From: Bacteroidota bacterium
GTDB taxonomy: Bacteria; Bacteroidota; Rhodothermia; JANXDC01
Assembly (NCBI GenBank): GCA_025998875.1
Contig: AP024675.1
Span: forward strand, 2,143,549-2,207,548
Direction: 5' to 3'
Length of the DNA stretch: 64,000 bases
Shown piece by piece: positions 29,168 through 32,211 of the stretch. The position numbers and the translations under genes were made by a program. Under the pieces are notes generated by a model, which saw only the letters and a list, made by a program, of their open reading frames with translations, ran no database searches and was not told where the DNA came from. How positions within the stretch are numbered: position 1 is the first letter of the stretch; every line of letters begins with the position of its first letter.

Positions 29168-31387
29168 TTAGAAATACACCCGATAGAGCAGCTTCACGTT
29201 GCGGCCCGGCTCGGGCATAATGGCCTTGATGCGGGACAGATGCTGCCGGTACAGGCGGTTGGTGAGGTTCTCCGCCCCTAGCACGAGCGTGTGCAAACAT
29301 GCCCCCCGCGTCCAGTAGTACTGCACCGAGGCGTCGAAGACGGCATATCCCGGCGTGGGCTCTTCGAAGGCATGCACTCGGTTCTGTCCCGCAGCCCATC
29401 GGAGGACGAGCATGGCCGAAAGCGGACCGCTTCCGTAGCGGAGCTCCAGACGCCCCTGCGGCGGAGGGATCATGGGCAGCGGCGCATCCCCCGGCACGAA
29501 CCCGGCCCGCACGTAGCTGGCCGAGGTGGCCAGGGCCCAGGAGGACATCAAGCGCCACTCCAGCGTCCCCTCCGCTCCCCAGAAAAGCGCATCCGTACCC
29601 GTGTACTGGTAGACGGGAAGCAGGGTACGGGGGTTGATCTGGCCTGTAGGTCGGGGGAAGATATAGCCGTAGATGCGGTTCCGGTACCCGGTCAACTCCA
29701 GACGGCCTCCGGGGGGCGACCAGCGCAGGGAAAATTCCAGACCGTAGCCCACCTCCTGTCCCAGAGCCGGATTGCCCACCTCGAAAGAGTAGCTGGCCAG
29801 ATGTGGGCCCTCGGAGTACAGCTCTTCCAGCTCCGGAGCCCGAAAGGCGCGCGTCAGCCCCACACGCACGTCCATGTGGTAGGGTAGCGTCCGAGCCAGG
29901 GTCACGGCAGTTGCAACATTCCCGAAACGACGGCTTCGGATAGCTCCGATGGTGCGGGACGTGCGCTCCTCGTATGGACTTACCTGACTGCCTTCGGTTC
30001 GCAGGGCCGCCCGGAGCAGCCAAGGTCCGGAAGACCATTCCTGATAGGCGGCCAGGGCCAGATTCAGCATCCATGCTGCCGGGGTAGAGACCCCTCCTCC
30101 GGCGGCGAAATCGCGATATCTTATCTCCAGGGCGACCGCCCCATTTCGGAAGGGTCCCCACCGGCTCTGTCGGGCCAGCGCGCGGGCCTGGTAGGCGAAC
30201 AGGGCGTAGTCGGTACCCACAATCCCACCGGATTCGAGCTCACGCAGGGCAAACAGGGTCGCGTCCTGTTTGAAGAGCAGGCCACTCCAGGACCCACCAT
30301 GCAGCGCCAGCTCAGCCTGAGCCGATAGCTGAGCGCGGGCCATCTCGACCGTAACCCCCTCGGGATGGGCACCCACGAATCCTCCCGGAACCCCGTAGCG
30401 AGCGGCATATCCCAGAGCCGAAATCCCAATAGCCCCCCAGGTCCGATTCAGCCCCCACCCCATCGCCGCGCTGGCGCTGGTCAGTCCGCTGTTGCGCAGC
30501 GGCCCGGAAGGGGTGCGCACATCCCCCATACGGCGCAGGGAGGCATCCACCCGGGCCGTTCCGGACAGGATCGGAAGCAGCAGCCCCATACCCCCGGCCA
30601 GACCGGCGCTTACGGATTCCGCCTGCAGGCTGGCCGCTCCGTGCAGGTGATCGGTCTGTTGCTCTGGGATCGTCCCGCGCACCACGTTGAGCACGCCCGT
30701 CAGGACGTTCGGGCTATAGAGTAGCGCTTCCGGACCGCGCAGAATCTCGATTCGTTCTGCCTGCAGGGGATCGATGGCCACGGCATGATCGGGGCTGGTC
30801 GCAGACAGATCCCCGGTTCCCGCCCCATCCTCCAGGATCGCGACCCGGTGCCCGCTCATCCCCCGCAGTACGGGTCGGGCGGTGGCCGGACCCATGCTCG
30901 AGGAGGCCAGTCCGGGCTCCTGAGCCAGCGTCTCGGCCAGCGTGCGCGCCAGCATGTGCCGGAGCCGCACCCCGTGCACGACGCTACCCAGTGTCCCGGC
31001 CAACCCCTTGCGCGCCTCGAGATCCGAAGTAACCTCTACGGTCTGCATCATCACGGCCGTGCTCGGCATGCGGATCTCGACCACGGTGCGCGGCGGGCGC
31101 ACCTCCACGCGCACGCTCGTGTTCTCATAGCCGATTCGAAAGGCACGCAGCGTGTACGTACCGGGAGGCACGTTGGAGATCTCAAACCGTCCATCCTCAT
31201 GCGCCGTGGCCGAGCGCCCCAGCTCGACGAGCAGTATCGAGGTCCAGCCCAATCCCTCTCCGGTATCCCGATCTCGGACCTGCCCCTGCAGCACAGCCGT
31301 CCGAACCTGGGGCAGACCGGATACCGGGGCGAGGATCGCCCACAGGGCCATCCCCGCCCGGAAGATCAGCTGTTGCGTGCGGCTCAT
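29168..31387 (-). CDS. TonB-dependent receptor
   Basis: This 739-residue outer-membrane receptor has a signal peptide, then a carboxypeptidase-like regulatory domain (about 30-110: LQGQVRDRDTGEGLGWTSI ... GRFEISNVPPGTYTLRAF). A plug domain (about 125-230; RPVLRGMSGHRVAILEDG, IEILRGPEALLYSP) and a barrel follow. The barrel ends in an aromatic residue (YRVYF), typical of outer-membrane proteins. It starts inside the stop of the His-rich lipoprotein gene (ATGA). The neighbours suggest metal or metal-complex uptake; zinc or copper are the best guesses but are not shown by the receptor itself. Confidence 0.92.
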   Translation of the reverse strand: MSRTQQLIFRAGMALWAILAPVSGLPQVRTAVLQGQVRDRDTGEGLGWTSILLVELGRSATAHEDGRFEISNVPPGTYTLRAFRIGYENTSVRVEVRPPRTVVEIRMPSTAVMMQTVEVTSDLEARKGLAGTLGSVVHGVRLRHMLARTLAETLAQEPGLASSSMGPATARPVLRGMSGHRVAILEDGAGTGDLSATSPDHAVAIDPLQAERIEILRGPEALLYSPNVLTGVLNVVRGTIPEQQTDHLHGAASLQAESVSAGLAGGMGLLLPILSGTARVDASLRRMGDVRTPSGPLRNSGLTSASAAMGWGLNRTWGAIGISALGYAARYGVPGGFVGAHPEGVTVEMARAQLSAQAELALHGGSWSGLLFKQDATLFALRELESGGIVGTDYALFAYQARALARQSRWGPFRNGAVALEIRYRDFAAGGGVSTPAAWMLNLALAAYQEWSSGPWLLRAALRTEGSQVSPYEERTSRTIGAIRSRRFGNVATAVTLARTLPYHMDVRVGLTRAFRAPELEELYSEGPHLASYSFEVGNPALGQEVGYGLEFSLRWSPPGGRLELTGYRNRIYGYIFPRPTGQINPRTLLPVYQYTGTDALFWGAEGTLEWRLMSSWALATSASYVRAGFVPGDAPLPMIPPPQGRLELRYGSGPLSAMLVLRWAAGQNRVHAFEEPTPGYAVFDASVQYYWTRGACLHTLVLGAENLTNRLYRQHLSRIKAIMPEPGRNVKLLYRVYF

Positions 31388-31809
31388 GAAGATACACTGA
31401 CCGGTATCGGAGGCGTGCGGAAATCGGCATGTCCTGCGTGCAGGAGCACGATCTCCAGGGTCGTCTGCCCCGGGCTTAAACCCCGCAGGTAAAACGTCCA
31501 GCTTGACCCTGTCCGGACAGAGGCTATGGTCGTATTGCCCACGTTAAGCTGCAGGCTGTACTCCTGTGCATCGGGCTGAAAGGAGTGCTCATCTGCGTCC
31601 AGAAAACGCACCTCGATGGGGCCGATCTCCTGGGCAATGCGCACCGAAAGAGAACCCGTCACGCGCCCTTCCCATACGCGCACCACCTCCTGTCCGGAAA
31701 GCAGGAGCAACAAACCCTCGGCCTCGCTGTGCTCTTCATGCTTATGTCCAAAGAGCCCGCATCCGGCCATGAGCAGAAGCAGGCCCAGTACATGTGCCCG
31801 GTGTTTCAT
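31384..31809 (-). CDS. His-rich lipoprotein linked to the TonB receptor
   Basis: This 141-residue protein has a lipoprotein signal (LGLLLLMAGC) followed at once by GLFGHKHEEHSEAEG, a histidine- and glutamate-rich stretch suited to metal binding. The remaining about 110 residues look like one Ig-like beta domain, ending ADFRTPPIPVSV. Similar small lipoproteins beside TonB receptors occur in Bacteroidota, but I know no assigned function. Its ribosome-binding site GGAGGG lies in the 3' arm of a strong hairpin. It is translationally coupled to the receptor downstream. Confidence 0.82.
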   Translation of the reverse strand: MKHRAHVLGLLLLMAGCGLFGHKHEEHSEAEGLLLLLSGQEVVRVWEGRVTGSLSVRIAQEIGPIEVRFLDADEHSFQPDAQEYSLQLNVGNTTIASVRTGSSWTFYLRGLSPGQTTLEIVLLHAGHADFRTPPIPVSVSS

Positions 31810-31818
31810 GGTTCGATA

Positions 31819-31887
31819 CCCTCCGTTTTTGCTTGATCTGCCTGCGATTCAAGCCCTTTGCGGGGCGATCAAGCACACAACGGAGGG
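31819..31887 (-). promoter_or_regulatory. Hairpin that sequesters the lipoprotein ribosome-binding site
   Basis: On the minus strand the 5' arm (31887-31867) and 3' arm (31838-31819) pair as 9 bp, a 3x2 internal loop, then 9 bp, around a 28-nt loop. The GGAGGG ribosome-binding site, 9 nt before the ATG at 31809, is part of the 3' arm. The stop codon of the upstream His/Cys-rich gene (31871-31869) lies in the 5' arm. Ribosomes finishing that gene would open the helix. There is no T-run, so it is not a terminator. Confidence 0.8.
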
Positions 31888-32195
31888 GCGCGAATCGGCC
31901 GGAGGGGGAAAAGCACGCCATAGGCGCCATGGGCGCAGGGAAGCAGAAGGCGCTGCATGGGCTGGGCCTGATACGGGGCCGGGGAACCGGCTAACCACAA
32001 ATCCCGGCCACTATGCCAGCACCACCAGCAGGAAAGGGAAAGGTATTCGGCCTCATGCCAGTGGACCTGTCCGCCTCGGGCATCGGCGCAGAGGGCTGTC
32101 CAGCGCTCATGCCGATGCTCGGCCCCCGCGGGCCTGTATCCGTCTGAGACCCAGAGGATGAGCAGCGGAACAATCCACTTCCAGCGCATAGGCAT
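31869..32195 (-). CDS. Small secreted His/Cys/Trp-rich protein
   Basis: This 108-residue protein has a clear signal peptide (MPMRWKWIVPLLILWVSDGY, ending near PAGA). A mature part begins EHRHERW and contains VHWHEAEYLS, the CxxC-like CWWCWHSG, LPCAHGAYG and a terminal PPLCA. These His and Cys clusters suggest metal binding or sensing. The gene leads the lipoprotein-TonB receptor operon. The start could be ATG 32195 or 32189. The former overlaps the operator-like dyad, leaving a leader of only a few bases. I do not recognise the family. Confidence 0.68.
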   Translation of the reverse strand: MPMRWKWIVPLLILWVSDGYRPAGAEHRHERWTALCADARGGQVHWHEAEYLSLSCWWCWHSGRDLWLAGSPAPYQAQPMQRLLLPCAHGAYGVLFPLRPIRAPPLCA

Positions 32196-32211
32196 AGGCC
32201 ATGTGGCCTAT
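32194..32211. promoter_or_regulatory. Operator-like dyad over the promoter and start codon
   Basis: The 18-bp sequence ATAGGCCA-TG-TGGCCTAT has perfect 8-bp arms. It touches the -7 element on one side and contains part of the first ATG (32195-32193) on the other. This placement suits a repressor, for example a metal-dependent one. Confidence 0.55.

Follow-up and report, generated by a model that had tools for sequence, protein, structure and literature searches.

Arrest peptides such as SecM, VemP, MifM, ApdA and ApdP halt translation near their C terminus, and in SecM the stalled ribosome breaks up a stem-loop in which the Shine-Dalgarno (SD) sequence of the next gene is sequestered (PMC10987492, PMC7897499, PMC10951233). 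What these peptides sense is the export or insertion of proteins, and the genes under their control are secA, secD/F or yidC. ApdA and ApdP use the tetrapeptide RAPP, which is an established translation-arrest motif (PMC9426467, PMC10951233, PMC12992588) and belongs to the rarest tetrapeptides (PMC12992588). The ribosome stalls when the third codon of the motif is in the P site and the fourth in the A site, as found for ApdA/ApdP and, in vitro, for CruR (PMC12992588, PMC10951233). CruR, encoded by bp2923 of Bordetella pertussis, is the DUF2946 upstream open reading frame (uORF) of bfrG; it senses copper and acts by Rho (PMC9426467), termination occurring over a gap of 162 nt. CutF of Rhodobacter capsulatus (cutFOG) is a small protein that is exported and has a Cys metal motif as well as a proline-rich C terminus; here, translation of the leader opens an SD-shielding stem-loop (PMC9973294); the protein controlled is a multicopper oxidase and copper raises its output. 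A survey of RAPP/RGPP proteins describes a TonB-related class throughout Gram-negative bacteria, and its text makes no mention of mRNA structure, hairpins, Shine-Dalgarno sequences or Rhodothermus, nor does its accessible part describe the lipoprotein operon considered here (PMC12992588). No studied example of such leaders in the lineage of the bacterium analyzed below was found in the literature.

The window, a stretch of 64,000 nt from a Bacteroidota bacterium of the class Rhodothermia, contains a locus in which the layout of CruR (a RAPP motif and a TonB-dependent receptor) is combined with a start-hiding hairpin in the style of CutF and SecM. All genes of the locus lie on the minus strand in the order ispH, a His/Cys-rich ORF, a lipoprotein gene, a TonB-dependent receptor gene and a Na+/H+ antiporter-family gene (Table 1). 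As is the case for CruR, the short ORF is apparently the first gene of an operon that contains a TonB-dependent receptor; the lipoprotein gene interposed between them is a difference from cruR-bfrG. Quite likely, the ORF encodes a metal-sensing arrest peptide of the CruR/CutF kind whose stalled ribosome opens the hairpin over the lipoprotein start. The solved structures nearest to the receptor are ZnuD (E 1e-31), followed by OprC (E 4e-14), and the metal is therefore probably zinc or copper. As side observations, the lipoprotein (31384-31809) has a short sub-cut-off match to PF13629 (E 4e-4), and a dyad, ATAGGCCATGTGGCCTAT, at 32194-32211 overlaps the beginning of the His/Cys-rich ORF. This dyad appears in a 451-nt fold as well and might serve as an operator or as a further hairpin at a start.

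Table 1. Features of the locus and of the candidate switch in the window.
Feature	Position	Strand	Remark
ispH	33125-32280	-	84-nt gap to the His/Cys-rich ORF downstream
His/Cys-rich 108-codon ORF	31869..32195	-	likely export signal, HxH, CxxC, C-terminal RAPP; homologues in 68/88 loci
H27-x-H29 codons (conserved HxH)	32109..32117	-	HxH in 64/67 homologues
C56-W-W-C59 codons (CxxC)	32019..32030	-	43 residues ahead of the RAPP Arg
RAPP arrest motif R102-A103-P104-P105 (CGC GCC CCT CCG)	31881..31892	-	3 residues from the C terminus
TGA stop of the His/Cys-rich ORF	31869..31871	-	within the hairpin
Outer helix 5' arm CCCTCCGTT (anti-SD)	31879..31887	-	overlaps both RAPP Pro codons
Inner helix 5' arm TGCTTGATC	31867..31875	-	includes the stop codon
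Inner helix 3' arm GATCAAGCA	31830..31838	-	
Outer helix 3' arm AACGGAGGG	31819..31827	-	includes the lipoprotein's GGAGGG
Lipoprotein gene, 141 aa, His-rich past the lipobox	31384..31809	-	
TonB-dependent receptor	29168..31387	-	start overlaps the lipoprotein stop (ATGA)
Na+/H+ antiporter-family gene	29161-27083	-	

The C terminus of the ORF reads ...I-R-A-P-P-L-C-A-stop (codons CGC GCC CCT CCG TTG TGT GCT TGA), which places an arrest motif near the end of a small protein. Together with this proline-containing C terminus, the CWWC and HxH motifs give the ORF the combination of a Cys metal motif and prolines known from CutF, although the CutF paper makes no mention of RAPP (PMC9973294). The N terminus is hydrophobic in alignments inspected by eye, and the export signal is putative. 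The likeness to CruR extends from this short, putatively exported ORF to the CxxC and to the position of RAPP exactly three residues from the C terminus. The spacing between both motifs is conserved in each case, but at 45 intervening residues (within one or two) in CruR and at 42 in the family described here. The locus likewise fits the TonB-related class of the RAPP/RGPP survey in being putatively secreted and carrying RAPP at the C terminus (PMC12992588). In contrast to CruR, the protein has an additional HxH and gives no match to DUF2946 (Pfam PF11162). One orthologous uORF passes the PF11162 cut-off (L015, 24.7 vs 23.7 bits) and several others match weakly, which puts the family at the edge of DUF2946. 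By analogy, the ORF would work like CruR and CutF, a resemblance in layout and presumed action rather than strict membership of the CruR family. A weak DUF2946 match elsewhere in the same genome was rejected as an out-of-frame reading inside a transporter gene. Further His/Cys ORFs with RAPP or RGPP tails, apparently at other loci of the class, were found via DUF2946 (L104, L105, L107, L108).

The lipoprotein, searched in 245 genomes of the class, is present in 108 of them, and 88 loci were read; when genome contigs were searched with a profile of the aligned lipoproteins, just two distant loci were recovered, both from metagenome-assembled genomes (MAGs). An upstream ORF that ends in RAPP, RSPP, RGPP or RDPP and lies within about 420 nt occurs at 68 of these 88 loci, in 20 genera and 6 families, with lengths of about 80-180 codons. 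This count follows the removal from 70 scripted hits of two unsound ones, L068 (RGGP) and L022 (RDPP, ORF 320 nt away), and a near copy of L058, L064, was excluded from the later tests. At L011, L012 and L014 the RAPP ORF lies farther off, about 450 nt upstream of the lipoprotein, with uncharacterized sequence between them. By way of background, R[AGS]PP within nine residues of the stop is found in only 3 of the 617 open frames of at least 60 codons in the window, the His/Cys-rich ORF included. Among the relatives the Arg of the motif is encoded by six different codons and each Pro by all four; because these codons vary synonymously, it is the peptide and not the RNA that is under selection. 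The CxxC is present in 42 of 67 homologues and its first Cys is invariant; the distance from the last CxxC Cys to the Arg is 42-43 residues in 36 of the 42, and homologues with one Cys only usually have it 45-46 residues ahead of the Arg, which is the first-Cys position. Exactly three residues follow the motif in 50 of 67 homologues, and apart from HxH and the invariant Cys the remaining protein diverges. In the sister species (G001, L002) gene order is identical, with 46% identity for the ORF and 69% for the lipoprotein, and a receptor homologous to that of the window lies downstream at this locus and at 28 of 28 class loci (L008-L035). In a MAG outside the class set (Co_bin.215, L005 5144-5666) a His-rich ORF ending in SPRAPPISLFDSPLS precedes a distant lipoprotein homologue, and the arrangement may thus extend more widely.

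The end of the ORF is also part of an RNA structure. The original prediction had described two 9-bp helices with a small internal loop, which hold both the GGAGGG of the lipoprotein gene and the stop codon of the preceding gene, and this structure is indeed present at 31819-31887 (-), where both elements were located in the arms. The helices are perfect and separated by a 3x2 internal loop, and the outer one can be extended by TTCG/CGAA past a 3x3 loop. The fold has an energy of -34.9 kcal/mol compared to a mean of -18.9 +/- 2.8 in shuffled sequences (z -5.6, 0/200 shuffles), and the hairpin still forms within a 451-nt context. The GGAGGG (31824-31819) lies within the hairpin, 9 nt ahead of the ATG at 31809. 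Overlooked by the original prediction, the outer 5' arm lies over the arrest codons, since the first base of CCCTCCGTT is the third base of the Ala codon and the arm spans both Pro codons of RAPP. Counting against the arrest-peptide reading, the genome makes modest use of SD sequences: of 36 first ATGs in the window, 8 have an SD-like motif, with 5% as background, and a published survey found no SD logo in Rhodothermus or Salinibacter (PMC3155529). A pattern search for the 16S 3' end carrying the anti-SD found none, and the Rfam SSU model gave a partial gene only. The sole match in the Rfam search, a sub-threshold one to mir-218 on the strand opposite to the hairpin, was taken as chance.

Retention of the pairing in relatives, a test by which the original prediction had proposed to stand or fall, came out in its favor. 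Without a folding model, the best helix between the segment from RAPP to the stop and the start region of the same locus was compared to that with the starts of other genomes. Native pairing was within the best 5% in 32 of 67 loci and within the best 2% in 21 of 67, and permutation of partners over 56 loci gave a z of 14 (0/2000 permutations). Segments displaced by -180 to +30 nt (30-180 nt upstream and 30 nt downstream) gave z values of 0.6-2.2 only, which controls for shared base composition. The letters of the arms change: the sister species has AGACCTCCT/AGGAGGTCT in place of CCCTCCGTT/AACGGAGGG of the window, other loci have GTTCTTGGT/ACCAAGAAC (L072) and TTCTTGGCT/AGCCAAGAA (L077), and the arms of L098, TTTCATGGCTTAAG/TTTAAGCCATGAAA, lie over the start codon itself. 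In most of these pairs the 5' arm begins 5-12 nt past the first base of the P-site codon, and the stop codon often falls within it, as originally described for the window. In the many relatives that lack any Shine-Dalgarno sequence it is the start codon region that is occluded instead. As in CutF, a stem-loop hiding the SD or start of the next gene is thus indicated, here by the hairpin and its covariation. Roughly half of the relatives that bear the gene pair retain start-site pairing, with letters that differ from those of the window. In about half of the RAPP-bearing loci no start occlusion or pairing was found, and this readout is therefore not universal.

In the proposed mechanism, the His/Cys-rich ORF would produce a short exported sensor that arrests its own synthesis at the C-terminal RAPP, the third codon then occupying the P site and the fourth the A site. 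Without a ribosome, the mRNA segment that begins at RAPP and ends shortly after the stop codon would pair with the lipoprotein start region and hide the start. A ribosome stalled at RAPP would occupy the 5' arm and expose the start, leading to translation of the lipoprotein and, through coupling at the ATGA overlap, of the TonB receptor. With the P site starting at 31886 and the ribosome reaching 15 nt on, it would cover the outer arm completely and the inner arm in its first part. The ribosome exit tunnel holds about 30-40 residues; because the CxxC-RAPP spacing exceeds this length, the metal motif would be just outside the ribosome at the stall. When little metal is available, arrest at RAPP would keep the hairpin open and the receptor would be made, whereas binding of metal to the nascent chain via HxH/CxxC would release the arrest, close the hairpin and lower synthesis of the importer. 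This sign of the response is taken from CruR by analogy, because the downstream gene encodes an importer, and would be opposite to that of CutF. SecM, VemP, MifM, ApdA and ApdP share the arrest near the C terminus, but the ORF described here has a metal-binding signature and precedes a metal receptor instead. Bound metal as the signal, which had been one of the suggestions of the original prediction, agrees with the conservation of HxH and CxxC as well as with the precedents of CruR and CutF.

Folding models give quantitative support to the effect of a stalled ribosome. When a ribosome is placed at RAPP, the predicted cost of opening the start drops by an average of 3.2 kcal/mol over 54 loci, compared to 0.18 in shuffles, and in 29 of the 54 at most 2 of 40 shuffles match this gain. 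In the window the modelled probability that GGAGGG is unpaired is about 0.002 without a ribosome and 0.33-0.54 with a stalled, queued ribosome that leaves only the RNA ahead free, while the cost of opening the start falls from about 17.5 to 5-9 kcal/mol. When the RNA behind the stalled ribosome is free to fold, the window model gives no SD release, because a second CCCCTCC upstream of RAPP recaptures the SD. The sister species has the 9-bp pairing, yet its start lies under a different hairpin, so that stalling brings no gain in the fold model. The modelling suggests that opening of the hairpin would depend on translation of the leader.

A rather unlikely alternative is that the arrest is read out by Rho, as in CruR, in which case the stalled ribosome would protect a rut site, its release would cause termination before the lipoprotein gene and the hairpin would be secondary. 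CruR itself acts in this way (PMC9426467), and the coding strand at the end of the ORF, about 31994-31840 (-), is C-rich and G-poor (C 0.37-0.44, G 0.26-0.27), similar to the C>G bubble of CruR, which leaves room for a contribution of Rho; the half of the relatives without start occlusion speaks for it too. However, the intergenic gap is just 59 nt here, compared to 162 nt in cruR-bfrG, and Rho alone would leave the covarying pairing unexplained. Plain translational coupling, in which passing ribosomes open the hairpin and RAPP is conserved without regulated arrest, is improbable. Modelled ribosomes at the stop codon and at RAPP differ little in how well they expose the start, but this explanation has to account for a tetrapeptide of the rarest class, with an established arrest function (PMC12992588), that is kept three residues from the end, by variable codons, in an otherwise fast-evolving protein. 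That the small gene serves as a translated leader governing the downstream start, as originally predicted, agrees with the sequence evidence; one of the triggers proposed at the time, stalling of leader ribosomes by uncharged His, Cys or Trp tRNA, is not supported. Such amino-acid attenuation would suit the many His, Cys and Trp codons of the ORF, but most of these occur well upstream of the arms, and they are neither clustered nor conserved at the switch, where RAPP/RSPP is conserved instead; the sole Cys codon near the arms is missing in relatives and the downstream genes are not biosynthetic, which makes it very improbable. Least credible of all is that this long perfect inverted repeat between genes is a terminator, a mobile repeat or a chance hairpin, since it lacks a T-run on either strand and is hence not an intrinsic terminator, was rejected as a repeat element because it has a single copy in the 2.35-Mb genome, and folds and covaries as described above.

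Returning to the metal-sensing arrest peptide, a more specific version can be put forward tentatively, namely that the signal is zinc and not copper and that a zinc-responsive peptide governs outer-membrane zinc uptake in the class, the peptide being kept across families while the RNA switch is rebuilt in each lineage with new sequences; in this genome the Pro codons of RAPP would form the anti-Shine-Dalgarno arm. In all, RAPP leaders upstream of TonB receptors, which have been reported and are largely unexplored, gain a concrete RNA readout with strong comparative support. This points to co-translational control of metal uptake in these bacteria and offers a way to ask whether nascent chains sense zinc in addition to copper.
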